From contig JANQIX010000043.1 of NCBI GenBank assembly GCA_028281925.1, positions 62,001-126,000 on the forward strand: a DNA stretch of 64,000 nt, read 5' to 3'. The stretch comes from Alphaproteobacteria bacterium. GTDB taxonomy: Bacteria > Pseudomonadota > Alphaproteobacteria > DSM-16000 > Inquilinaceae. The position numbers and the translations under genes are program-made. Of the stretch, positions 16,876 to 37,454 are shown piece after piece; the stretch's first letter is position 1; every line of letters begins with the position of its first letter. The notes beneath the pieces were generated by a model. It ran no database searches. It worked only from the letters and a program-made list of their open reading frames with translations, and was not told the DNA's origin.

Positions 16876-19365
16876 TTATCCACCGATTGCCTGAGGGATT
16901 GGCGCAAGCCCCCAGATCTCTGCGGCATAGCCGAGCACCGTCAGATCGCTGGAGAACCGGCCCATACGGGCCGTATTCAGAATCGCGCGCCTTGTCCACT
17001 CGTCCTCGCGACGATAGAGCGCATCTACCCTGCCCTGGCATGCCAGATAGTCGGCGAAATCGGCCAAGAGCAGATAGTGGTCGCCATGGCCAGTCAGCAG
17101 GTCGAAGATCGGCCTATAGAGATCCGGCTGTCCGGGTGAGAACGCGCCATCCCTGATCTGGTCCAGAACCTGTCGTAAAACCGGGTTGCCGTCATAGTGC
17201 ATCCAGGGATCGTAGCCCTGCGCCCGTACGGACTTCACCTGGTCCGCCGACAGCCCGAAGAAGAACAGGTTGTCCTCCCCCACCTCTTCGGCGATCTCGA
17301 TATTGGCGCCGTCGCGCGTTCCGACCGTCAGCGCGCCATTGAGAGCGAGCTTCATATTCCCCGTTCCGGAGGCTTCCGTGCCCGCGGTGGAGATTTGCTG
17401 CGACACGTCTGCTGCGGGAATGATCACCTCGGCCAGCGATACATTATAGTTCGGCAGGAAGAGAACCTTGAGCTTCTCCGCCACATCCGGATCGTTGTTG
17501 ATGGTACGCGCGACGTCGTTGATCAGCCGGATGATCAGCTTGGCGGTCGCATAGCCGGACGCGGCCTTGCCAGCGAAGACGACCGTGCGCGGGACAATGC
17601 CGGATGCCGGTTCGTCCCGCAGCCGGTTAAAGCGGGCAATCACCTGCAGCAGGTTCAAGAGCTGGCGCTTGTATTCATGCATCCGCTTCACCTGCACGTC
17701 GAACAGGCTGTCGACATTCAGGCTTAGCCCCTGCCGCTCAGAGGCCAGCCGTGCCAGCCTTTCCTTGTTGTCGCGCTTGACCTGGCGGAAAGCCGCGCGG
17801 AAGGCCGGGTCTTCGGCAAAAGGCTCCAGCCGGCGCAGGGCCTGCAGATCCGTTGTCCATTCCCGGCCGATCGTCTCGCTGATCAGACGCGCCAGCGGTC
17901 GGTTGCATTGGTTCAACCACCGTCGTGGGGTGATGCCGTTGGTCTGGTTGACGATGCGGTCCGGGAACACGCGGTGCAGATCGGCGAAGGTTCCGGCTTC
18001 CATCAACGACGTGTGCAGCCGCGCGACGCCGTTGACGCGATGGCTGCCCACGAAAGCGAGATGCGCCATGCGCACGCGGCGTTCCCCGCCATCTTCGATC
18101 AGCGAAACCCGGCGGACCAGATCTTCGTCACCCGAGAACCTCCGACGCACCTCTTGCAGGAACCGGTGGTTGATCTCGTAGATGATCTGCAGATGGCGGG
18201 GCAGCAGGATTTCGAACAGCCCCACCGGCCAAGTCTCCAGCGCCTCGGGCATCAGAGTGTGGTTTGTGTAGGACAAGGTGCGGACCGTCGTGTCCCACGC
18301 CTCATCCCAGTCGAAGCCGTGCTGATCCATCAACAGGCGCATCAGTTCCGCCACAGCGATGGCCGGGTGCGTATCGTTCAGCTGGACGGCGATCTTGTAG
18401 GGCAGCATCCGCAGGTTGTCGTGCGTGCTGTGAAAACGCCGAATGATGTCCTGCAAAGACGCGCTGACGAAGAAGTACTCCTGCTTCAGGCGTAGCGTCT
18501 TGCCTTCGCTGGTAGTGTCGTCGGGATAGAGCACACGTGACAGGCTGGCCGCGCGCTGCTGCTGGTGGACGGCATCGACATAGTCACCGCGGTTGAAGAC
18601 CTTCAGGTCGAATTCCTGAGAGCGGGCGGCCCAGAGGCGAACGCTGTTCACCATGCCGTTGCCGAAACCAGCGACCAACTGGTCATAGGCCATGGCCGAC
18701 ACCTCGTCGGTGTCGAGCCAGCGCACCTGCTTCGCCCCCTGATTATCCCGCGTCTGTTCGACCCGGCCGTAGAACTGCACGGGGAAAGTCAGCTCCGGCC
18801 GTGAGAACTCCCACTTGTTGCCGTAGCGCAGCCAGTCGTCCGGCATTTCAAGCTGCTGACCGTCCTCGCCCATATACTGCGCGAACATTCCGTAATCGTA
18901 ACGGATGCCGTAGCCGTAGCCGGGGATGCCGACCGACGCCATGGAGTCGAGCAGGCAAGCCGCCAACCGGCCCAGCCCGCCGTTGCCGAGTGCCGCTTCC
19001 GGCTCTTGCGCCGCGAGGGTATCGAGGTCGAGCCCCAAATCCGCCAGCGCTGCCTGGCAGAGGTCGAAACAGTCCGACGCCAGCAGGTTGTTGACCAGGG
19101 ACCGCCCGAACAGGAACTCCAGGGAAAGGTAGTAAACGCGCTTGTGGTCGTTGGCGTAGACGGTGCGCACGCTTTCCATCCAGCGCTCGACCAGCAGGTC
19201 GCGCACGGTCAGCGCGGCGACGTGGTACCAGTCGCGTTCCGTTGCCGTGACCTTGCCCTTGCCAACGGTGTGGGTCAGATGGCCCAACATCCGCTGCTGG
19301 AAGTCTGCAACCTCCGGCCGGAGGCCCCCTTCGGCCCCTTGGTCTTCCTGGAGAACGCTGCTCAT
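16876..19365 (-). CDS. glgP: Glycogen/alpha-glucan phosphorylase
   Basis: This PLP-dependent enzyme releases glucose 1-phosphate from alpha-1,4-glucans. The 829 residues match bacterial glycogen phosphorylases. Clear segments are YLSLEFLFGRSL, the AALGNGGLGRLAAC loop, NDTHPAIAVAELMR and the PLP site EASGTGNMKLALNGA with Lys672 as the Schiff-base lysine. The start at 19365 (MSSVLQEDQG) was chosen over an upstream extension that lacks the family's character; the ribosome site is weak. No other glycogen genes (glgA, glgB, glgC) are nearby, so it is separated from a typical glg operon. It is flanked upstream by a perfect 21-bp inverted repeat that ends the next operon. Confidence 0.96.
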   Translation of the reverse strand: MSSVLQEDQGAEGGLRPEVADFQQRMLGHLTHTVGKGKVTATERDWYHVAALTVRDLLVERWMESVRTVYANDHKRVYYLSLEFLFGRSLVNNLLASDCFDLCQAALADLGLDLDTLAAQEPEAALGNGGLGRLAACLLDSMASVGIPGYGYGIRYDYGMFAQYMGEDGQQLEMPDDWLRYGNKWEFSRPELTFPVQFYGRVEQTRDNQGAKQVRWLDTDEVSAMAYDQLVAGFGNGMVNSVRLWAARSQEFDLKVFNRGDYVDAVHQQQRAASLSRVLYPDDTTSEGKTLRLKQEYFFVSASLQDIIRRFHSTHDNLRMLPYKIAVQLNDTHPAIAVAELMRLLMDQHGFDWDEAWDTTVRTLSYTNHTLMPEALETWPVGLFEILLPRHLQIIYEINHRFLQEVRRRFSGDEDLVRRVSLIEDGGERRVRMAHLAFVGSHRVNGVARLHTSLMEAGTFADLHRVFPDRIVNQTNGITPRRWLNQCNRPLARLISETIGREWTTDLQALRRLEPFAEDPAFRAAFRQVKRDNKERLARLASERQGLSLNVDSLFDVQVKRMHEYKRQLLNLLQVIARFNRLRDEPASGIVPRTVVFAGKAASGYATAKLIIRLINDVARTINNDPDVAEKLKVLFLPNYNVSLAEVIIPAADVSQQISTAGTEASGTGNMKLALNGALTVGTRDGANIEIAEEVGEDNLFFFGLSADQVKSVRAQGYDPWMHYDGNPVLRQVLDQIRDGAFSPGQPDLYRPIFDLLTGHGDHYLLLADFADYLACQGRVDALYRREDEWTRRAILNTARMGRFSSDLTVLGYAAEIWGLAPIPQAIGG

Positions 19366-19466
19366 TCTGGCCTGGCTCCCGCAACGTGTGCCGCCGCAGC
19401 GGCCAAAGCCTGATGCGATCACATCGGATCGACGCGATCGGTCAATCAGACTCTAACTATCTGATT

Positions 19467-19515
19467 TAGTGCAAAATGACGTCAGGCTGAGTCCGCCTGA
19501 CGTCATTTTGCACTA
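19467..19515 (-). terminator. Perfect 21-bp inverted repeat, terminator of the telA operon
   Basis: Arms at 19467-19487 and 19495-19515 are perfect reverse complements, 21 bp, with a 7-base loop. The core is CAGGC/GCCTG, followed outward by TGACGTCA-like sequence and by AAAA/TTTT tracts. The right arm includes the stop codon of the upstream minus-strand hydrolase gene. The paired A and T tracts suggest an intrinsic terminator that can work in both directions. Confidence 0.65.
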
Positions 19516-20562
19516 GGCCCGCCCCCCGAAGAGCGGACCGAGAAACCGGGTCAGCAGATCGTTCGACTGTGCCCGCACCCCGTCATCGCGACCGATAACG
19601 AAGCCCCGGTCTCCGACGCAGAGAGCGAGAACCGCCTGCCGGGCGATGCGACCGCTCATCGGCACGCCCGTCACCAGGTCCCGTACGACCGCGTCGGCCC
19701 CGACTTCCAGCCGACATTCGGCGATGGTGCGGCCGACCTCGCGCGGCCGGGTCACCGCGCCGTCCCATTGATGATAGGCGTCGGGGAACACCACCATGTC
19801 CACCGTTGCACCGCCGGCTTCGAGATCGTCGGCGACTTCACGGCAGCGGTCCACGTCGATGATGGCGTCTAGCGCCCCCATCAGCATCAGCACCGGAGCG
19901 CCGGTGGCACGCCTGTCTTCAAAACGCGCAATGCACGGGCCGTAGAAGGAGACATGGGCGGCGAAACGCGCGCCGCCAGGGGAATAGATCTCCGCGATCT
20001 GTTGCTGCGCTGCATACATGGTCGCCATGGCACCGTAGGAGAAGCCCATGACGGCGACGCGCGCGCCATCGACATCCGGACGAGAGTCCAGCCAGTCCAA
20101 CGCGGCATAGGCGTCGGCGAGGAACATCGCCTCAGTCACGTTCAGGACGCGGCTGGTAAAGTCCGTCACCATATCGCGCCGTGCCGCAAAGACGTCCACC
20201 GCCAAGGCCGCGACGCCCATGGCCGCAAACTGCCGCGCATAGGTCAGTTCGCGCGCGCCCATGATGCCGCCGTTGCCGTGCAGCAGCACGACCGCTGGCA
20301 CCGGCATGTCCGTACCCGCCCCCTCGGGCAGGAACAGCCGCCCGACGCCTTCCGTCGCCGGGTCGCGATCCGGGCCGCGCCCAACATCGGCCAGCGCATA
20401 GGGGCTGTGGCTGGGAAATGCCACGACCTCGCCGGCCATGTCCTGCACGGCGTCCGCCGGTGGCCATGTGCCGAAGGGCACGCGGTCGGCCGCCGACGGC
20501 CCAGCGTGGATCACCGCGGCAAGGACGAACAGGAAACAGCCGCATTGCCTCAGCCGGCGCAT
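19513..20562 (-). CDS. Secreted dienelactone-hydrolase-like alpha/beta hydrolase
   Basis: The 349-residue protein is the last gene of the telA operon. A signal peptide (MRRLRQCGCFLFVLAAVIHA...PSAAD) sends it out of the cytoplasm. The alpha/beta hydrolase core has the oxyanion segment VVLLHGNGGIMG, the nucleophile elbow MGFSYGAMAT with Ser instead of the Cys of true dienelactone hydrolases, a late Asp in MGALDAIID and the catalytic His in DAYHQWD. The last 90 residues extend beyond the fold. The substrate is unknown; an ester is likely. The ATG at 20562 leaves 4 bases to the preceding stop, so translation is probably coupled. Longer upstream starts would run into the previous gene. Confidence 0.82.
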   Translation of the reverse strand: MRRLRQCGCFLFVLAAVIHAGPSAADRVPFGTWPPADAVQDMAGEVVAFPSHSPYALADVGRGPDRDPATEGVGRLFLPEGAGTDMPVPAVVLLHGNGGIMGARELTYARQFAAMGVAALAVDVFAARRDMVTDFTSRVLNVTEAMFLADAYAALDWLDSRPDVDGARVAVMGFSYGAMATMYAAQQQIAEIYSPGGARFAAHVSFYGPCIARFEDRRATGAPVLMLMGALDAIIDVDRCREVADDLEAGGATVDMVVFPDAYHQWDGAVTRPREVGRTIAECRLEVGADAVVRDLVTGVPMSGRIARQAVLALCVGDRGFVIGRDDGVRAQSNDLLTRFLGPLFGGRA

Positions 20563-20566
20563 GCCG

Positions 20567-21691
20567 TCAGCCCTGGATCTGCTCAATGGCATTGAGCAGT
20601 CGCTCGACCACGCCGAACGGCGGCATGGGTTCGACCTTGTCGATGGCATCGGGGATTCCCGACACAGGCAGGATCGACGGATCGCTGGTGACGCTGAAGC
20701 CAGAACGGAAGCCGTGCCGGCTCCACGCGATATCCTGCAACTCCGGATCCTGCAGGGCTTCAACCAGGGCGCGGCCGGAATCGGTCGTAGCCATCAGGAT
20801 GTGGCTGGAATAGACGGTGGGTTCGGGATAGAGCACGACCGGCCGCGTATCGCGCCCCTCCAGCCCGGTCCACTGTTCGACATCGGCCGCAGCGAATTCG
20901 ATCAACTGGCTTTCATATCCGGCAACCAGAGGATAGGCGCCCATGCCCTGGCGCAGATACTGCTCGAACAGGGTGGAGCTGGAGCTTTCCAGATATCCCA
21001 TGCGCCGATAGATCCCCGCCACCCTGCGCACAGCCTCTTCAAGGTCGGGGCCCGCCGTCTCGCCGCCAGCGAGCACCTGGGTGATCAGCGAAGCGAACTG
21101 GTTGCCGGAGTTCGACCGGAGCGGGTTGGTGGAGAACACGATCACGGACCCATGCAGCTGGTCCACGCCCACGTCGCCCCACGCGGCTTCGTTCAGCACC
21201 AGATCGAGAAGGGCCACGGTGTCCACCGCAAAAGCCGCCTCGCCGTCGGTCAGCGGCCGGGCGATGCCGTAGTCGACAAGAGCTTGGGCCACCGGTGACC
21301 AGCTGTAGAGCACAATGGGCGAATTGAAGATGATCTCAGACTGCACCGGATTGATGCCGTTGGTCCGCGCCAGCTCGCGGCTGACCTGGCTGGCCGGCCA
21401 ATAAAAATCAGGGTCCTGGCTGATCAGCGCCCGGTCGGTGACCATCTCCAGCGATCCGGCGCGCCGGGCATCCACGGTCAGGCCATAGCGGTCCTGCAGG
21501 ATCTCCTGCACCGCCAAATTGCCCATGAAGTTGCGCTTCTCGCCACCGATATAGCCCATGGCCTCGGTATCGGGCGCGCCGCGCAGCAGGGCGGTCAGAA
21601 AGTTCTCGTCGTCCGACTGAAAGACGGTGTAGCCGACGACCGCCAGGGCTGCGACGACGAACACGAGAATGCCGATGATGCGGCTGGACAT
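20567..21691 (-). CDS. Membrane-anchored solute-binding-like protein of the telA operon
   Basis: The 374-residue protein starts with an uncleaved-looking transmembrane helix (IIGILVFVVAALAVVGYTVF, residues 5-24), so it is probably tethered to the inner membrane and faces the periplasm. The rest resembles a type II periplasmic binding fold: MGYIGGEKRNFMGN, ALISQDPDFYWPASQ, a hinge region EIIFNSPIVLYSW, and SGNQFASLITQV. There is no transporter gene beside it. It sits between the xpaC-like gene (24-base gap) and the hydrolase gene (4-base gap). GGAAAG before the ATG supports the start. With the SBP-VWA lipoprotein upstream, the operon encodes two such binding domains, which argues for a sensing or assembly role over import. 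Confidence 0.72.
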   Translation of the reverse strand: MSSRIIGILVFVVAALAVVGYTVFQSDDENFLTALLRGAPDTEAMGYIGGEKRNFMGNLAVQEILQDRYGLTVDARRAGSLEMVTDRALISQDPDFYWPASQVSRELARTNGINPVQSEIIFNSPIVLYSWSPVAQALVDYGIARPLTDGEAAFAVDTVALLDLVLNEAAWGDVGVDQLHGSVIVFSTNPLRSNSGNQFASLITQVLAGGETAGPDLEEAVRRVAGIYRRMGYLESSSSTLFEQYLRQGMGAYPLVAGYESQLIEFAAADVEQWTGLEGRDTRPVVLYPEPTVYSSHILMATTDSGRALVEALQDPELQDIAWSRHGFRSGFSVTSDPSILPVSGIPDAIDKVEPMPPFGVVERLLNAIEQIQG

Positions 21692-21715
21692 CGCGATGCT
21701 TTCCGGACAGTTGAT

Positions 21716-22387
21716 CTAGCGTGAACCGGTGCGGCCCGGACGGTCGCGCCGCCTGGCCCCGCTCACGCCGTCGACGCCTTCGGCATCGATCGCCGACTCC
21801 AGCAGCGCGATCCGGGCATCCAGGTCGTGGGCTTCGTCTTTCATCATGCGACGGTTGTACTCCATGAACACCTTCTCCAGATCCCGCAGCATCTCTTCGG
21901 TGCGGCTGCGCGTCTGCTCATCCACTGCCAGGCCGTCTTCCATGTAGTTGTAGCGTTCGACGATCGTCTCGACATGCGGCAGATAGTGGACGAGCGGCTT
22001 CCGGAGCCGCCGATAGTCGCGCGGATTGCGGGTCAGGTCGGCGATGATCAGGTCGGCGCTGTCGCAGATCCGCCCGATGCTGTCACCGATCGCGGACACG
22101 CGCATACCCTCGCGCATCTTGCGGATCCGCTGGATCAGGCCGTTCGCCTTTTCCAGCTCCTCCATGACGAATTTGGGCTCGAATCCCAGGCCCTCCGTTG
22201 CCTTGATCCGCCTGAACGGGCTGACAGGTGCGAGAACCAGCGCGGTCCCGCCCCAGACAAGGCCGCCGAGCACAATCGAGAAGATCGGATCGACCTGCGC
22301 CAGCACGGCGGCCACGGCCACGGTGATCGCTCCGGCGACAGGCGCGATGATGTGACGCTGCTTGGTCAGACTCTGCAGGAACGCCAT
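21716..22387 (-). CDS. XpaC-like membrane protein (5-bromo-4-chloroindolyl phosphate hydrolysis family)
   Basis: The 223-residue protein has two hydrophobic segments near the N-terminus (about 13-31 and 35-52), followed by a long helical, charged cytoplasmic part with VMEELEKANGLIQRIRKMRE and EEMLRDLEKVFMEYNRRM. The family name comes from a Bacillus gene; the enzymatic claim is weak. In Bacillus subtilis xpaC is adjacent to the telA-family gene yaaN, and the same pairing is conserved in this operon, which supports the call. The C-terminus is basic (GARRRDRPGR). The ATG at 22387 has no strong ribosome site. A structural role with TelA at the membrane is the likeliest reading. Confidence 0.72.
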   Translation of the reverse strand: MAFLQSLTKQRHIIAPVAGAITVAVAAVLAQVDPIFSIVLGGLVWGGTALVLAPVSPFRRIKATEGLGFEPKFVMEELEKANGLIQRIRKMREGMRVSAIGDSIGRICDSADLIIADLTRNPRDYRRLRKPLVHYLPHVETIVERYNYMEDGLAVDEQTRSRTEEMLRDLEKVFMEYNRRMMKDEAHDLDARIALLESAIDAEGVDGVSGARRRDRPGRTGSR

Positions 22388-22426
22388 TACGTCGGTTGCC
22401 GCTCTGGTCAGGCCTTCGTCTCGGCG

Positions 22427-24004
22427 TCAGTTATAGCCGCGCGCATGGCGGAATGCCGCGGCCAAATCGCCCCGACCATCGAACACGCGCGCCCGGCTCA
22501 GCTCTGCCACCTCTTCAAGCTGCGTTTCGTCGGCATCGCCAAAGGTGATGGCGTGGATCGGTACATCGCGCGCGAGCTGGCGGTAATACCGGGCGAAGCC
22601 GGCAGCATCCCCCTCGCTCTGCCCGTCGGTCAGCAAAAGAAGGGCTGCGTTGTGGGTCTCGATCTCCGGCAGTGCCAGCATCTCCTGAAACGCCTGCCAG
22701 GCACAGGCGTACATGTCGGTGCCGCCCTGGGCCCGCAGCTGGTTCACCATCTCCGTCAGCTTTGCGGCATCATCCGGCCCGCGGGCCACCGCGACATTCC
22801 AGGGACTGCTTGAGAACGGGATGACGAGGAAGATGTCTTCCGGCGTGGCCTGCAGCATGTATTGCTGCGCCGTCGTCTGGTCGAACAACAGGCGGATTGC
22901 CTCTTTCAGCTGGCTCTCGCCCGCGCCCTCCATGCTGCCGGAAAAGTCCAGACACATGGCGAGCAGCGACGGCTTGCGCAGCGTTTCCTGATAGAGCGCC
23001 AGCGCCTCTTCAATGACGTCGGGCGCGGGGAAACGGATCGCCGGCAGCACGCTCTCCACATCAATGCCCCAATCAGCCCGGAACACGTCGTCGTCCGCGC
23101 CCTCGATCTGCCCGCCGAAGCCGGTGCGCCGGCCCAGCGCCAGCAACTCCCTCTGGACCTCGTCGGTCAGCAGATGCTGCTGCAGCTCCAGGAAGAATTC
23201 CTCCTTTTCGGCGTTGTCGTCGCGGGCGACGAAGCCCAGCGGGCTGTCGGCCACAGCAACGCCATCGGACGGATAGATGGTATAGAGAGTCGGCAGGCCG
23301 CGGCGCTCGAGATCCTGGTTCGCCTCGATAATCAGGGCCTCGTAGTTGTACATGGCCCAATAGGCGTCGCTGTCCGCCCCTTCCAGATAGAGGCTCTTCA
23401 GCCATCCCGAACTGCCGGAGGTGCGCGCCACGCCGTCCAGCAGCGTCCCAACTTCGGCCTTCAGCGCGTCATCTTCCAGCATCTCCGCCGTGACAACCTC
23501 TGGCGCTCCGGCGAGCGCGGTGAGCATGGCCATGTAGGCGGAGAATCCGCTATTGGACTGGGTGGCCGAGGTCATGATGAATTCAAGCTGGCCCTGGCGT
23601 ACCAGCTCAACCAGCTCCGCCGTCGCCACGTCGCGCCCGACAAGGCCCAGCCGCTCCGCCTGGGGCTGCGCCACGGCGAAGACCACCGGCGACTGCATGA
23701 TCGAGCGCAGATGCTTCACCCGCCGCTCGCGGTCGCCCATCTCGACCCAACGCGTATGCGCGGGCCACACCGCGTCGAAGCCTTCCGCACCCGATTGCAG
23801 CGCCAGCCGGATATCCACCGATCCCTGATACGTCATGTGGCAGACCCAGCCGCGGTCGTCGCAGAAGGCTTCGATCAAAGGCTGCAGGCTGCGGTTTTCC
23901 GAGCCGGAGAGGATCGTCAGCTCGTCCCGCGATCCGCTGTCGCAGGACAAGAGCCCGATCGACACTGCGCCCAGCATGAGCGCCCTCCAGACCTGACGGA
24001 CCAT
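22427..24004 (-). CDS. Lipoprotein fusing a solute-binding domain with a von Willebrand A domain
   Basis: The 525-residue protein has a lipoprotein signal with lipobox LLSC and Cys21 as the lipid site, so it should be membrane-anchored outside the cytoplasm. Residues 27-320 resemble a type II solute-binding domain (ELTILSGSENRSLQPLIEAF, FDAVWPAH, FIMTSATQSNSGFSAY). Residues 345-525 are a VWA domain with a complete MIDAS metal site: Asp353-x-Ser355-x-Ser357, Thr429 (GGTDMY) and Asp460 (LLTDGQS). VWA domains bind protein partners through a divalent metal. Starting at ATG 24004 rather than the GTG at 24016 is favoured by GAGGA just upstream. It is the second gene of the telA operon. Confidence 0.85.
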   Translation of the reverse strand: MVRQVWRALMLGAVSIGLLSCDSGSRDELTILSGSENRSLQPLIEAFCDDRGWVCHMTYQGSVDIRLALQSGAEGFDAVWPAHTRWVEMGDRERRVKHLRSIMQSPVVFAVAQPQAERLGLVGRDVATAELVELVRQGQLEFIMTSATQSNSGFSAYMAMLTALAGAPEVVTAEMLEDDALKAEVGTLLDGVARTSGSSGWLKSLYLEGADSDAYWAMYNYEALIIEANQDLERRGLPTLYTIYPSDGVAVADSPLGFVARDDNAEKEEFFLELQQHLLTDEVQRELLALGRRTGFGGQIEGADDDVFRADWGIDVESVLPAIRFPAPDVIEEALALYQETLRKPSLLAMCLDFSGSMEGAGESQLKEAIRLLFDQTTAQQYMLQATPEDIFLVIPFSSSPWNVAVARGPDDAAKLTEMVNQLRAQGGTDMYACAWQAFQEMLALPEIETHNAALLLLTDGQSEGDAAGFARYYRQLARDVPIHAITFGDADETQLEEVAELSRARVFDGRGDLAAAFRHARGYN

Positions 24005-24052
24005 CGGCGTCCTCACTTGGCTACGTGCGACGGTACGGCTAGAGCCCGTGGG

Positions 24053-25177
24053 TCAGTCGACCCTCGCCTGCTGGGCGCGCAGCTCTTCTTCCGCCTTGGC
24101 CAGGGTGATTCGGCCCTGTGTTCGAGCCTCCCTGGCATCCTTCTCAAGCTGGTCGACCTTGTCCAAGGTCTGCACCAGCGTGCTGATCGTGTAGGCGATG
24201 GCGTCGACGTCGGCGATGCCGCGCTTCGTCTGCTCGTGGATCTGGATCGTGTTTTCCTGCAGCTGGTCGGCCATTGCCTTCAGCTGGGAGTTGGTGAAAT
24301 CGGTCACCGATTTCAGGCTTTCCAGGCCCTTCTTCTGGCGCAGCTGCTCCACATGGATCAGCATCGTGTTCTTCCACGCCGGAATACCGTGGGCGATGGC
24401 GCTCTTCAGCTCCTCCACCAGCGTAATGCCCGTTTGCTGAACCTGGCGGATGGTCGGCATGGCCGCATGCGCGATCGCGCGCGACTTCTCAAGGTTCATG
24501 ATCTTGCGGTCCAGCCGGTCCATGGCAGCCTGCAGATCGCGGACCCTCTGCGCCTCGATCAGCGCGTCGGGCTCGTTCTTCTTCGCCTCGGCGATCTGCT
24601 TCTGCTCGGGCAGCACGACGGTCTTGTAGTGCTCCATCACCTCGCGGCCGGCGACGATGTGCAGGGTCAGATCTTCGAAATTGTTCAGGTTCTGGTCGAA
24701 CAGCTTGTCCAGCATGATGAGGCCAAGATTGACCTCCTGGATCTGGTCCTCCAGCTGCGCGGCGATCGAATCGATCTGGCCGCGCGCCGTCTGGAAGTTG
24801 TCGGTGAACTTCGCAATCTCTTTCTTCACGTTGAAGAACATGCGCCCGAAGAAGCCCTTGTCTTCCTTCAGGCTGCTCACATCCAAGCCGCTGGCGATCA
24901 GTTTGATCTCGCTCAGCCGGTCGTGGATCGGCCCCATGTCGCGGGACATCACCTGTTCCAGCACCGTGTCGGCGAAATCGGCCACCTGCTTTTCCGACTG
25001 CGTACCGAAGTTGATGACGCTGGTCGCCGACATCAGGTCGATGGTGCCCTTGATCTCGTCGATGCGCCCACGCTCGACCTCGGTGATGTCGGTCGGCGCC
25101 TTGGCCAGAACGGCTTCGGTTTCCTGCAGCTGACGGCTGGCCGGCGCAGCGGCGGCGGCGGTTTCGGTGTTGGTCAT
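24053..25177 (-). CDS. telA: TelA-family (tellurite / toxic anion resistance) protein
   Basis: This is a 374-residue cytosolic protein of the TelA/KlaA family. It is almost entirely helical and coiled-coil-like, with typical segments INFGTQSEKQVADFAD, ELKSAIAHGIPAWKNTM and QENTIQIHEQTKRGI. Members are linked to tellurite or cell-envelope stress resistance, but the mechanism is unknown. Alanine-rich residues 5-15 form a flexible N-terminus. The ATG at 25177 follows GGAGGG at a long but usable spacing and excludes an upstream extension unlike the family. It is the promoter-proximal gene of a five-gene operon; the promoter is shared with the divergent transketolase-like gene (25178-25456). Confidence 0.9.
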   Translation of the reverse strand: MTNTETAAAAAPASRQLQETEAVLAKAPTDITEVERGRIDEIKGTIDLMSATSVINFGTQSEKQVADFADTVLEQVMSRDMGPIHDRLSEIKLIASGLDVSSLKEDKGFFGRMFFNVKKEIAKFTDNFQTARGQIDSIAAQLEDQIQEVNLGLIMLDKLFDQNLNNFEDLTLHIVAGREVMEHYKTVVLPEQKQIAEAKKNEPDALIEAQRVRDLQAAMDRLDRKIMNLEKSRAIAHAAMPTIRQVQQTGITLVEELKSAIAHGIPAWKNTMLIHVEQLRQKKGLESLKSVTDFTNSQLKAMADQLQENTIQIHEQTKRGIADVDAIAYTISTLVQTLDKVDQLEKDAREARTQGRITLAKAEEELRAQQARVD

Positions 25178-25456
25178 GGTTCGGCTGTCCCTCCGCTGAC
25201 AGGCGCGCTTAAAGACCCTCAACCGATCAAGACCGGCAGGGATCCAGCTGCCCAGAACGGGCGGGAGCATACCCGCAGAGCCGCCCACTGCCTACCGGCT
25301 TAGCGCATCGGCGCTGGAGCGCATGCATTTCGTCCGATTCAGCTGCGTACCGCCCACCACTCTTTTTGCCCATTGGCGGCGAGACTGCCCCTGGCACGCG
25401 AGGCGGAAGTCGTGGAGGATTGGGCCGTCCGAGCGTCATTGAAGGGATGCGCCTCC

Positions 25457-27814
25457 ATGTCAGCCACGCTTTCGCTTGCGTCTGCCACACCCGATCCCGA
25501 TCCGGGTCGCGACCATGCGCTGGCCTGTCTGGCGGCCCTGGAGCGCAAGGCGCTGTGGCTGTCGACCTATATGATCCACCACGCCAACAATCTGCGCCCC
25601 AAGCGGGACAAGCTGAAAGTCGGCGGTCATCAGGCGTCCTGCGCTTCGATCTCCACTTTGATGACGGCGCTCTATTTCCACGCGCTGCGGCCGGAAGACC
25701 GGGTGGCCGTCAAACCCCATGCCAGCCCCATGTTCCACGCCATCCAGTACCTGATGGGCCGGCAATCCCTGGAGAACCTGCAGCAGTTCCGGGCCTTTGG
25801 CGGTGCCCAGTCGTATCCCTCGCGCACCAAGGATCAGGTAGACGTGGATTTCTCCACGGGCTCGGTCGGTCTGGGGGCCGCCATCACCTGCTTTGCGTCG
25901 CTGGTGCAGGATTATCTTGATGCCAAGGCAATGCTGCCCGCAGGGCAGCGACCGGGCCGCATGATCGCGCTAGTCGGCGATGCGGAGCTGGACGAAGGCA
26001 ACATCTATGAGTGCCTGCAGGAAAGCTGGAAGAACGAGCTTCGGAACTGCTGGTGGATCATCGACTACAATCGCCAGAGCCTGGACGGCATCGTCCAGGA
26101 CCAGCTGTTCCGGCTGATCGATCGCACGTTCAGGGCCTGCGGCTGGAACGTCGTAACCCTCAAATATGGGGCAAAGCTGCGGGCCGCCTTCGAGAAGCCG
26201 GGCGGGCGAGCGCTGAAGCGCTGGATCAATCAGTGCCCCAACGACGTCTACTCGGCGCTGACCTTCCAAGGCGGCGAGGCGTGGCGGCGTCAGATCCTGA
26301 CCGACATGCCGGACGACGCGGATCTGCGTACGCTGTTGGGTGCGTATGACGATACTGCGCTGGAAGCGCTGGTCACAAATCTCGGCGGCAACGACCTGCC
26401 GACGGTGCTGGACGCGTTCTCGCATGTTGAGGACAGCCGGCCCACCTGCTTCATCGCCTATACGATCAAGGGCTACGGTCTGCCTTTGGCCGGACATAAG
26501 GACAACCATGCCGGCATCATGACGGCGGAGCAGATGGCGGACTTCCAGCGCGCCATGGGCGTGCCGGAGGGGGCGGAGTGGGATCGCTTCACCGGAACCG
26601 AGCCCACGGCCGACGTGCTGGAGCGGTTCATGGCAGACGGTCCGCTGGCAGTCGGACGAACATCGGCCGTTCGGACTCAGTCGATCCCCGTCACGCCATT
26701 CACGACGCCAGCGGGTGCGACTGCCTCCACCCAGGAAGCCTTCGGGCGCATCCTGAACGAGCTGGCACGTCGCGACGACCCGCTGTCGCGGCATGTCGTC
26801 AGCACCTCACCGGACGTGACGATCTCCACCAACCTGGCGCCCTGGGTGAACCAGCGGGGCCTGTTCCACCGGCACGAGCACGAGGATGTGTTCCGCACCC
26901 GCAAGGTGGCCTCGCCGCTGAAATGGGTGCGGAGCCGGGCGGGTCAGCATATCGAGTTGGGGATCGCGGAGAACAACTTGTTCCTGCTGCTGGCGGCACT
27001 CGGTCTGTCGGAACCGCTTTTCGGCACCCGCCTGTTGCCGGTCGGTACGCTCTATGACCCGTTCATCGCCCGCGGTCTCGATGCCCTGACCTATGCCTGC
27101 TATCAGGACGCGCGCTTCATGCTGGTGGCTACACCCTCCGGCATTACCTTGGCGCCGGAGGGTGGGGCCCACCAGTCGGTCTATCAGCCCTTGATCGGCA
27201 TCGGCCAGCCGGGCCTGACCGCCATGGAACCGGCTTATGCGGATGAGCTGGCGGAGATCATGCGCTGGGGCTTCGAGCACATGCAGGCCGCCGACGGCGG
27301 CTCAGTCTACCTGCGCTTGTCGACCCGTCCGCTTGACCAGCCGCAACGCACGCTGGGCTTGGCCGAGCGCCGGGCAGTGATCGATGGCGGATATTGGCGC
27401 GTGCCGCCAGGGCAGGATGCGCGGCTGGCCATCGCCTATTGCGGTGCGATTGCACCGGAAGCCGCAGAAGCCCATAGCCGACTGGCAGAACGCAGATCCG
27501 ATATCGGCCTCCTGGCCGTCACCTCCGCCGACCGTCTGCTGGCCGGATGGAATGACGCCCAGGCGAAACGGCGTCGCGGGGAAGACGCGGAAAGCCATGT
27601 GGAACGGTTGTTGGCGCCACTGGCGCCGGACGCCCGGCTGGTGACCGTACTGGACGGCCATCCCGCCACACTGGCCTGGCTGGGCTCAGTGCTGGGCCAC
27701 AAGGTGACGCCGCTGGGCATCGACCGCTTCGGCCAATCCGGCGATGTGATCGACCTCTACCACGCATACGGCATCGACGCCGACGCCATCACCGCGGCGG
27801 CGGAGCAAGGATAA
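25457..27814 (+). CDS. Large transketolase / homodimeric pyruvate dehydrogenase E1-like enzyme
   Basis: This 785-residue thiamine diphosphate enzyme has the transketolase layout: N-terminal cofactor domain with the TPP motif beginning GDAELDEGN and ending DYNRQS (about 175-210), a pyrimidine-binding middle domain with LGIAENNLFLLLAALGLSE (about 500), and a C-terminal domain. The segments KLKVGGHQASCASI and SPMFHAIQYLMGRQ recall AceE-type E1 enzymes, but it is 100 residues shorter than AceE and no E2 or E3 gene is adjacent. Both keto-acid and ketose substrates are possible. AAGGGA before ATG 25457 fixes the start. It is divergent from the telA operon and ends at a strong bidirectional terminator. 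Confidence 0.8.
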   Translation: MSATLSLASATPDPDPGRDHALACLAALERKALWLSTYMIHHANNLRPKRDKLKVGGHQASCASISTLMTALYFHALRPEDRVAVKPHASPMFHAIQYLMGRQSLENLQQFRAFGGAQSYPSRTKDQVDVDFSTGSVGLGAAITCFASLVQDYLDAKAMLPAGQRPGRMIALVGDAELDEGNIYECLQESWKNELRNCWWIIDYNRQSLDGIVQDQLFRLIDRTFRACGWNVVTLKYGAKLRAAFEKPGGRALKRWINQCPNDVYSALTFQGGEAWRRQILTDMPDDADLRTLLGAYDDTALEALVTNLGGNDLPTVLDAFSHVEDSRPTCFIAYTIKGYGLPLAGHKDNHAGIMTAEQMADFQRAMGVPEGAEWDRFTGTEPTADVLERFMADGPLAVGRTSAVRTQSIPVTPFTTPAGATASTQEAFGRILNELARRDDPLSRHVVSTSPDVTISTNLAPWVNQRGLFHRHEHEDVFRTRKVASPLKWVRSRAGQHIELGIAENNLFLLLAALGLSEPLFGTRLLPVGTLYDPFIARGLDALTYACYQDARFMLVATPSGITLAPEGGAHQSVYQPLIGIGQPGLTAMEPAYADELAEIMRWGFEHMQAADGGSVYLRLSTRPLDQPQRTLGLAERRAVIDGGYWRVPPGQDARLAIAYCGAIAPEAAEAHSRLAERRSDIGLLAVTSADRLLAGWNDAQAKRRRGEDAESHVERLLAPLAPDARLVTVLDGHPATLAWLGSVLGHKVTPLGIDRFGQSGDVIDLYHAYGIDADAITAAAEQG

Positions 27815-34933: not shown

Positions 34934-36430
34934 TTACGCCCTCAGTGCTTGCGACTGCGTCTGGCCGGACCCGGCGTCGGGCCTGCTCGAGCTATCAGCA
35001 GGCGACATGCCTGAGGTCTGGGATGCCTTGAGGTCGCGGTAGGCGGGCGGGCCATAGATCGGCAGGGTGATCGTCACGGTGGTGCCCTGGCCCTTCACGC
35101 TGTCGATCGCCAGGCGCCCGCCATGCTGTTCGGCCAGAGCCCGCGCCAGCGGCAGGCCGAGGCCGGTGCCCTGAAACCGGCGGGAGATGGTGTTGTCAAC
35201 CTGCTGGAAAGGCTGCATCGCAACGGCCACGTCGTCCGCGGCCATGCCTATGCCGGTGTCCGAAACGCTGATGACGACCTGAAGGTCGTTGATCCGCGCG
35301 GCCGCAATGGTCACGACCCCGTCCCTGGGGGTGAACTTCACGGAGTTGGACAGCAGATTCAGGATGATCTGCTTCAGCTTCACGGCATCGGCCATGATCG
35401 CCGGCAGCGGCTCTGCCGCCTCGGAAACGGCAAGACCGATGCCGGCCTCAGCAACCCGAGCGCCCATCAGGCGGTAGCAATCGTCGATCAGCTCCGTCAG
35501 GTCGACGGGTTCGACGTGCAGCACCATGCGCCCGGCTTCGATCTTCGACAGATCCAGGACATCATTGACGATGGCCAGCAAATGCTGACCGCTCTGATGA
35601 ATATCCTCGACATAGTCCGCATACTGGTCATGGCCCAGTTCGCCGAGAATGCGGCTGCGCATCATGTCGGAGAATCCGATGATGGCGTTCAACGGCGTTC
35701 GCAGCTCATGACTCATCGTCGCCAGGAAGGCTGACTTGCTGCGATCGGCAGACATTGCATCGTCGCGCGCGTGCATCAGCTCTTCGGTCGTCTCTTCGAC
35801 GATGCGGTACTGGCGCTGCAACTCGTCATAGGCCGAGGCAGTCTCGGCGGCCTGCTTGCGGGTTTCGTCATGTGCGCGCCGCAGGGCGTCCAGCGTTTCC
35901 TTCAGAGAGCGCTCGGGCAACCAGTGCATCGCCAGCCATGCCGCCGTCCCGAGGACGATGCCGAGCAATGCGACAAGCCCAGTGTCCGTCAGCAGCGGCA
36001 GAAGACTTGTGCCGACGGCCACCGTCCCCACCATGACGTCGGCCACCTGGATCGGCCGTCGCTGCCATAAAAGGGGAGATTGGATCTGCTGCGACGACTC
36101 AAACACGAGACCGCCGGCATCTTCCCAGATCATTTGCCGCACCGTCACGTCCGCCTCGGTGGTCAAAGAGACCAGATCGGTCAGGTGCTCGATGCCATAC
36201 ATCCAGGTCGGACCGTAGATGTAGGCGTGCTGGGCAAGGCGCTCGGAACTCAGCTGGGCCTTGAACTTGAGATCGGCTTTCAGCGCGAAATAGCCGGCGG
36301 CGAAGTATCCCGACGGCACGGCAATGGCGATCGCAACCCCGATGATCAGCGACAGCCGGCGCATAAGCCGGCGCATTTGGCCCATGCGTTCAGCGAAATT
36401 CGTCGTCGTCGGTTTCGCGATCCACCGCAC
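34934..36430 (-). CDS. Membrane-bound sensor histidine kinase
   Basis: The 498-residue protein has two transmembrane helices (about 26-50 and 147-166) that bracket a periplasmic sensor part of about 95 residues, then a coiled-coil linker (175-235), a HisKA domain with phosphoacceptor His241 in MSHELRTPLNAI, and a HATPase domain with the N-box NLLSNSVKF and G-boxes DTGIGM and GTGLGLPLA. The last 35 residues are Ser-rich. It is encoded 6 bases after a solute-binding protein gene, so that protein is a likely ligand-sensing partner. No response regulator gene is in the window. The start is uncertain: GTG 36430 is closest to the upstream stop, and ATG 36385 is also possible. Confidence 0.9.
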   Translation of the reverse strand: MRWIAKPTTTNFAERMGQMRRLMRRLSLIIGVAIAIAVPSGYFAAGYFALKADLKFKAQLSSERLAQHAYIYGPTWMYGIEHLTDLVSLTTEADVTVRQMIWEDAGGLVFESSQQIQSPLLWQRRPIQVADVMVGTVAVGTSLLPLLTDTGLVALLGIVLGTAAWLAMHWLPERSLKETLDALRRAHDETRKQAAETASAYDELQRQYRIVEETTEELMHARDDAMSADRSKSAFLATMSHELRTPLNAIIGFSDMMRSRILGELGHDQYADYVEDIHQSGQHLLAIVNDVLDLSKIEAGRMVLHVEPVDLTELIDDCYRLMGARVAEAGIGLAVSEAAEPLPAIMADAVKLKQIILNLLSNSVKFTPRDGVVTIAAARINDLQVVISVSDTGIGMAADDVAVAMQPFQQVDNTISRRFQGTGLGLPLARALAEQHGGRLAIDSVKGQGTTVTITLPIYGPPAYRDLKASQTSGMSPADSSSRPDAGSGQTQSQALRA

Positions 36431-36436
36431 GCGTGG

Positions 36437-37276
36437 CTACTCGACCGGCAAGGCGCCAAACCGGCGCAACATCATCTGACCGTCTTCCGAATGAACGAAG
36501 TCGATAAAGCTGCGGGCTGTCGCCGGGGTGTCTTCGCGCACCACCAGAAAGAACTGCTTCCCCATCGGGTAGCGTCCGGCACCAAGGTTGGCCAGCGTCG
36601 GCGCTACCCCGTCGATCGGCAATGCGTAGAGGCGTACACCTTCCGACCAGACTTGCAACACGGTGCCGACGGTCAGCGACCCCTCCATCATCACGGCCAG
36701 TTCCACGTTTTCCTGGTCGGTGGTCGCCATTGGAACATCCGGACGCCGCCGTGCGGCAGCAAACGCATCCCGCAGCGCAGCGAATTGCGAGATCACGACG
36801 CTCAGGTCGCTTTCGGTCTCAGGTCGCACAATCACCCTTACCGGCGTTCCATCCGGCCATCTCGCCTCAGGATCGGAGAACATCCGGACCGCGACCTCCG
36901 GGGCAAGGTTAAGCTCTTGCGGGTGGGAGGAAAGGAAGGCGATCGGCGTGACAGCGAACGGAATCTGATTGAGGACGACGTCGCTCTGCTCTTCGGCGGT
37001 CAGAGGCCTGCCCGTAACAGCAATATCGATGGCCCCGTCACTCAGTGCACGGATACCGCCGCCGCTGCCCATGCTGGGCAGTACGTCGACGCGCACCCCT
37101 GGATGCTCCACGGTGAACGCGGCACCGAGCTGCCTTAGGGCCGACAACGCCCCGCCGGTTCCGCCCACGCGAATTGCCTGTGCCTGCGCGCTTGTTTCCG
37201 CCAAGAGAACAACGGTGAAAAAAAAGACGGCCCATCGCCGGAACGCGAGAGCCTGCAGCAATCCCCGAATGCACAT
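36437..37276 (-). CDS. PstS-like periplasmic solute-binding protein paired with the histidine kinase
   Basis: The protein (about 279 residues from ATG 37276, 293 from an alternative start at 37318) has a Sec signal peptide with core AVFFFTVVLLAE and cleavage near AQAQA. The mature chain is a type II binding fold of the PstS/phosphonate class: IRVGGTGGALSALRQLGAAF, LPSMGSGGGIRALSDGAIDIAVTGRPL, and later GRYPMGKQFFLVV. The GSGGG loop in PstS binds oxyanions, so phosphate or a similar anion is plausible. No permease or ATPase gene is adjacent. The stop is 6 bases before the histidine kinase start, which suggests sensing and not transport. The start choice rests on signal-peptide shape; ribosome sites are weak. 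Confidence 0.78.
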   Translation of the reverse strand: MCIRGLLQALAFRRWAVFFFTVVLLAETSAQAQAIRVGGTGGALSALRQLGAAFTVEHPGVRVDVLPSMGSGGGIRALSDGAIDIAVTGRPLTAEEQSDVVLNQIPFAVTPIAFLSSHPQELNLAPEVAVRMFSDPEARWPDGTPVRVIVRPETESDLSVVISQFAALRDAFAAARRRPDVPMATTDQENVELAVMMEGSLTVGTVLQVWSEGVRLYALPIDGVAPTLANLGAGRYPMGKQFFLVVREDTPATARSFIDFVHSEDGQMMLRRFGALPVE

Positions 37277-37454
37277 TCGTCCGAGCTCGATTGTGGATTC
37301 GCACAGACCGTACCGCATATAGAGCTAAGAAATCATAAACACTCTCAATCTTCCGGCTTCCTTGCCCGCGTACCGTGCCCGTTACCCTGCGACCGTTCGC
37401 CCCGGGATTCCTGTCTCGGTGTCGGCTGAACGCGTGCAGCGGGCGATCGATGGT

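Follow-up and report, generated by a model that had tools for sequence, protein, structure and literature searches.

A conserved gene set combines TelA and XpaC with two extracytoplasmic binding-type proteins, one of them fused to a VWA domain

Four genes of the window (the whole 64,000-nucleotide stretch of DNA analysed), encoding TelA, a lipoprotein in which a solute-binding protein domain is fused to a VWA domain (SBP-VWA), an XpaC-like protein and a second protein of the solute-binding type (SBP2), constitute one conserved unit. We tentatively consider them a functional unit, namely an envelope-spanning ligand sensor or assembly that is coupled via XpaC to TelA and is no importer, a reading that we hold to be close to an even call. 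Many bacteria have TelA and XpaC, which influence how well cells tolerate nisin, tellurite and cell-wall drugs, and a conserved pair of outside SBPs tied to them would open a testable route from a ligand of two soluble domains to TelA. We argue that this coupling matters, because the gene order is kept across phyla and a second, unrelated version exists.

The first-pass annotation had described a five-gene telA operon that ends at a single strong terminator. All five open reading frames were present on the minus strand, in the order telA, SBP-VWA, xpaC, SBP2 and hydrolase, separated by 48, 39, 24 and 4 bases:

24053-25177, minus strand: telA, 374 aa; cytoplasmic helical TelA-family protein (PF05816, E 7.8e-71)
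22427-24004, minus strand: SBP-VWA lipoprotein, 525 aa; lipobox LLSC, sulfate-binding-like SBP domain and VWA domain
21716-22387, minus strand: xpaC-like, 223 aa (PF10112, E 9e-15)
20567-21691, minus strand: SBP2, 374 aa; signal-anchor helix and sulfate-binding-like SBP domain
19513-20562, minus strand: hydrolase, predicted secreted; dienelactone-hydrolase fold (PF01738, E 3e-18), GFSYGA nucleophile motif
19467-19515: hairpin terminator at the operon end, from inverted repeat and RNA fold

The terminator was recovered as a very strong hairpin. It is formed by a 24-nt inverted repeat (19467-19490 / 19492-19515, 96% complementary) which contains the stop codon of the hydrolase gene, and its RNA fold reaches -39.7 kcal/mol (z -9.2). 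The interval 19300-25500 showed no sigma-70 promoter-like site, no Rfam element was found, and the operon contains no transporter gene.

TelA scored 239 bits against PF05816 (curated cut-off 30), and hydropathy analysis revealed no transmembrane segment in 49 of 50 relatives. The XpaC-like protein scored 55.6 bits against PF10112 (cut-off 29.8). Hydropathy places a two-helix membrane hairpin at its N-terminus (about residues 11-56), followed by a charged helical domain, in agreement with the earlier proposal that TelA and the helical part of XpaC act inside. As an independent check, dereplicated proteins at the XpaC position were compared with PF10112, which was matched by 39 of 41. The window genome encodes one TelA and three XpaC-family proteins above the cut-off, together with one weaker match.

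SBP-VWA consists of an SBP domain (about residues 25-345) and a VWA domain (about 344-525; Pfam E 4e-9). The metal-site (MIDAS) residues D353, S355, S357, T429 and D460, arranged as DxSxS...T...D, are invariant in 44 relatives, as is the stretch S150-N151-S152-G153. The extracytoplasmic, MIDAS-bearing VWA domain of the first-pass annotation was upheld. An AlphaFold2 model built from 44 sequences (pLDDT 94.0) has 1sbp (Z 27.9), 5um2 (27.5) and 6ddn (25.8) as its nearest folds, and 4fx5 (Z 22.5) for the VWA part. SBP2 matched no Pfam family above cut-off and gave no usable match in a sequence search against the PDB. Its AlphaFold2 model (40 sequences, pLDDT 92.7) lies about equally near 2qry (a thiamin-binding fold, Z 24.2), 6ddn (24.1), 5um2 (23.7) and 1sbp (23.6). 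Judged by these models, sulfate-binding proteins are the best or near-best fold match for each SBP domain. Profile alignment of SBP2 with the SBP half of SBP-VWA (hhalign probability 98.9, E 3.9e-17) indicates that the two are paralogues. They share an aligned S-N-S-G motif, located at the start of a helix and forming the densest conserved stretch in each protein.

The two proteins appear to be held at the membrane in different ways. Nearly all SBP-VWA relatives carry a lipoprotein cysteine after the signal sequence when relaxed lipoboxes are allowed, the strict pattern being fitted by 65 of 82. The N-terminal helix of SBP2 (residues 2-25) has no lipobox, and its glycine at position 7 is conserved at 97% or more; both features speak for a helix that is retained in the membrane. 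By predicted structure, both proteins have the SBP fold of an ABC importer, and a linked permease and ATPase were found neither in the operon nor as recurrent neighbors of the conserved genes. The earlier description of two binding-type proteins without a transporter thus holds for linked genes, and a partner could act in trans. A modelled sulfate-like fold is no proof of an oxyanion ligand, and the glutamates E36 and E51, which are invariant and lie close to the first strand in the two SBPs, could mean a different one.

Conservation of the gene order was followed in several genome sets. Among 61 genomes, SBP-VWA occurs in five, the window's own and four kin, and all four kin show the same telA, SBP-VWA, xpaC, SBP2 order as the window; two of them, at 46-47% identity, belong to other families of the class. 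When genome contigs were scanned with a profile, 80 loci emerged, spread over Pseudomonadota, Bacillota, Acidobacteriota, Bacteroidota, Spirochaetota, Nitrospirota, Armatimonadota and others. With the window and two kin loci, 83 loci were examined, of which 80 had a contig long enough to be assessed. Local profiles placed SBP2 after SBP-VWA, with an XpaC-sized gap between them, in 79 of these 80 loci and in at least seven phyla. Intergenic distances within this trio (SBP-VWA, XpaC, SBP2, in that order) are mostly -4 to +40, large negative values reflecting reading frames called from upstream start codons. Because it is conserved in about 80 loci, the gene order is far beyond chance. Homologues scattered without shared order, which the first-pass annotation had named as evidence against its proposal, were thus not the picture for these four genes; for the hydrolase they partly were.

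The one exception among the assessable loci, L054, lacks SBP2 and has a short telA fragment. At L075, SBP2 is spread over two reading frames, and at L049 SBP-VWA is split; we ascribe all three anomalies to decay or assembly errors. Another locus (L018), titled as an Anaerolineae metagenome-assembled genome (MAG), is 95-98% identical to the window operon and has the same contig as a genome placed in the window's genus (G001), and is probably mis-named.

TelA adjoins the trio in at least 61 of the 83 loci. It lies upstream in 38, in Alphaproteobacteria, and downstream in 23, in other phyla (Bacillota, Acidobacteriota, Bacteroidota, Nitrospirota and Spirochaetota); the downstream placement also occurs in one alphaproteobacterial genome (G225). 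Where no adjacent TelA was detected (21 trio genomes), 12 genomes have a TelA and nine show none, some of the nine being fragmentary MAGs; the TelA of the L043 genome is possibly the adjacent copy itself. The invariant core is therefore SBP-VWA, XpaC and SBP2, and TelA is not strictly required. In an even sample of 385 alphaproteobacterial genomes, in which SBP-VWA occurs in eight and TelA in 30, all eight SBP-VWA genomes have TelA (hypergeometric P 5e-10), side by side in seven. Prevalence is low, with 9 positive genomes out of 398 in the phylum sample and 2 out of 148 among the Clostridia sampled. When flanking genes were clustered, no additional partner emerged across phyla.

A divergent branch, in which SBP-VWA is 26-31% identical to the window protein, was found on Variovorax and Sphaerotilus plasmids, in Deinococcus, in Nonomuraea and in two further Pseudomonadota genomes. 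Here SBP2 comes first, followed by TelA (where identified), SBP-VWA and an XpaC-like protein with weak profile scores and no Pfam match. The three orders, telA-first, telA-last and SBP2-first, are cyclic rotations of one another, a pattern that would fit tandem duplication followed by loss at different ends. On the Variovorax plasmid (L115:11193-24373) the set lies a few genes from a Wadjet locus annotated with JetA, JetD and SbcC/MukB-like genes, with flotillin and OB-fold genes nearby. On the Sphaerotilus plasmid (L114:2563-12312) it stands between PhoX phosphatase and ExeM/NucH nuclease genes, a neighborhood with a phosphate-scavenging flavour.

A second cluster of the same logic is present in the window genome itself, on contig C62 (L147:5720-10227 = G000:C62:57720-62227). 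It encodes OmpA, XpaC, an NMT1-type SBP with an OmpA-like tail, a VWA lipoprotein and an OpuAC-type SBP; TelA is absent. In the 385-genome sample the NMT1/OmpA protein was found in only one other genome (G232, locus L151), where VWA, OmpA-like and XpaC proteins are its neighbors; this genome has the first system too. A related run on Vibrio rotiferianus plasmid pAM7 (L153:6970-15754), and on other Vibrio plasmids, leads from an ABC ATPase through NMT1/OmpA, VWA and a further SBP/OmpA protein to a protein that has a hydrophobic hairpin but no Pfam match, and then on to TelA, an SBP and an ABC permease. Their binding domains come from different SBP families, so that evolution seems to have brought TelA and/or XpaC together with VWA and SBPs on more than one occasion. 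The OmpA domains may serve to tether these proteins to the cell wall.

From the gene order, families, predicted folds, anchors, invariant motif and MIDAS we infer the following mechanism, ligand and phenotype for the four genes. On the outer side of the membrane would stand two paralogous binding domains, of which one has a lipid anchor and a VWA fusion and the other a membrane helix. Their small ligands, identical or related, would most likely be anionic. Ligand closure would alter a metal-dependent contact that the VWA domain makes through its MIDAS with SBP2. The membrane helix of SBP2 and the hairpin of XpaC could then relay the change across the membrane, where XpaC would recruit or organise TelA beneath it, with envelope protection as the outcome. 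That TelA is a component beneath the membrane has been proposed before (PMC7824862).

Several lines of evidence support such a sensor unit: the trio order (79 of 80 loci, at least seven phyla), the adjacent TelA (at least 61 of 83), the presence of TelA in all SBP-VWA genomes of the alphaproteobacterial sample (8 of 8, P 5e-10), the divergent branch that repeats the four genes in a third order, the second, non-orthologous cluster of the window genome and the Vibrio plasmids, and the invariance of pocket motif and MIDAS. In addition, TelA and XpaC genes are induced in envelope stress, and the pair has nisin and tellurite sensitivity phenotypes, the TelA mutant being nisin-sensitive (PMC3139573, PMC12791056); by analogy with this literature, a stress function of the four-gene set is plausible. 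Against the sensor unit stand the poor conservation of XpaC (identity to the window protein is 14-52%), which speaks but weakly for a precise docking site, the trio genomes without TelA, the other XpaC-like genes of the window genome, which could serve TelA, and the Vibrio analogue, whose ABC ATPase and permease favour a link to transport. In its boldest form the proposal would define a class of transmembrane receptors, widespread and undescribed, in which paired periplasmic SBPs control a MIDAS/VWA contact and XpaC relays to a TelA scaffold; this class would have originated two or more times, from unrelated SBP families, and would give TelA an input ligand. We regard this as conceivable, though rather improbable.

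Several known systems resemble the set in part. The TelA-XpaC pair (Bacillus XpaC/YaaN, Listeria Lmo1966-1967, Lactococcus llmg_1115-1116) joins the same families, PF05816 and PF10112, in one operon, whereas here two extracytoplasmic SBP proteins are added, one of them VWA-fused. The classical direct adjacency of telA and xpaC is also lost, SBP-VWA lying between them here and SBP2 in the TelA-last order. Sulfate-type ABC SBPs (1SBP, Xanthomonas Sbp 5um2, SubI 6ddn) share the fold over about 270-290 residues (Z 24-28), and the conserved motif of the present SBPs sits at a helix start much as in other members of the class. In contrast to these, the present SBPs are a duplicated pair with either a VWA fusion or a membrane anchor, and no permease or ATPase is linked to them. 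The Ter system, akin to our set, pairs TelA with a VWA protein (TerF-type); here, however, the VWA domain is extracytoplasmic and SBP-fused, and TerD/TerC partners were not found in the window genome. The alpha2-delta subunit of voltage-gated calcium channels has an extracellular VWA domain with MIDAS and a ligand-binding domain, and acts on a membrane partner. The VWA profile match to it (E 2e-4) serves for a works-like comparison only; its ligand domain is unrelated, no channel is present here, and the set is not a member. Public annotation names single proteins ('substrate-binding and VWA domain-containing protein', 'toxic anion resistance protein'). No description of the four-gene set was found in the open literature covered, which did not include a 2012 Ter/TelA comparative paper (10.1039/c2mb25239b), where a prior mention is possible.

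Alternatively, the two proteins could be orphan SBPs that supply an ABC permease encoded elsewhere with an anion (for instance sulfate or a similar oxyanion), with TelA and XpaC as accessories. That sulfate-binding proteins are nearest to both SBPs, and that the non-orthologous Vibrio cluster joins SBPs, VWA and TelA with an ABC ATPase and permease, would fit such an importer. However, no recurrent transporter family was seen beside the trio in about 80 loci across lineages, and both the VWA fusion and the membrane-helix anchor of SBP2 are unusual for shuttling SBPs; we consider this explanation unlikely. Less probable still is periplasmic sequestration, in which the SBPs would be sponges or guards for tellurite, selenite or the like while TelA and XpaC add tolerance inside. 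It would account for the predicted sulfate-like pocket fold, and it accords with the name of TelA and its tellurite phenotype (PMC12791056). Yet TelA is now viewed chiefly as a general envelope-stress protein (PMC11128244), a sponge leaves the VWA MIDAS and XpaC unexplained, and little binding is to be expected of two SBPs at operon-level expression.

Membership of the hydrolase, the fifth gene of the proposed operon, did not stand. It adjoins SBP2 only in the window's genus (a 97% identical relative) and none of the relatives beyond the genus that carry the four-gene core has it. Within the window's family, the core of one genome (G007) is followed directly by glycogen phosphorylase, and another (G004) has telA, hydrolase and glycogen phosphorylase without the trio; hydrolase relatives also occur in genomes without any TelA. 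Because core loci outside the genus do without it, the hydrolase is a lineage-specific rider, an optional passenger outside the conserved core. A genuine five-gene operon, with a hydrolase that acts on the ligand which the SBPs sense, or sets it free, would agree with the 4-base gap, the shared terminator and the TelA-hydrolase neighbors of the trio-less G004. Given its absence at all other core loci, even in G007 of the same family, and its TelA-independent relatives, we find this very improbable. The simplest history would be an ancestral block of telA, trio, hydrolase and glycogen phosphorylase in the window's family, with separate losses. Glycogen phosphorylase adjoins the operon here (16876-19422) as in the window's family, and in Blautia loci (L069, L074, L082, L091, L097) it lies on the operon's other side; this recurrence is probably a coincidence.

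Finally, a role in anti-phage or mobile-element defence has the slightest chance of all: plasmid copies exist, one divergent copy is near a Wadjet system and TelA has been discussed as anti-phage within the Ter system (PMC7824862), but most copies sit amid ordinary chromosomal genes, none was found in phages or viral contigs, and PADLOC gave no match for the operon except a weak partial PbeC match for TelA (E 5e-4).

Elsewhere in the window, another gene for a binding protein of the SBP_bac_11 type (36437-37318, minus strand) is located directly upstream of a histidine kinase gene (34934-36430).
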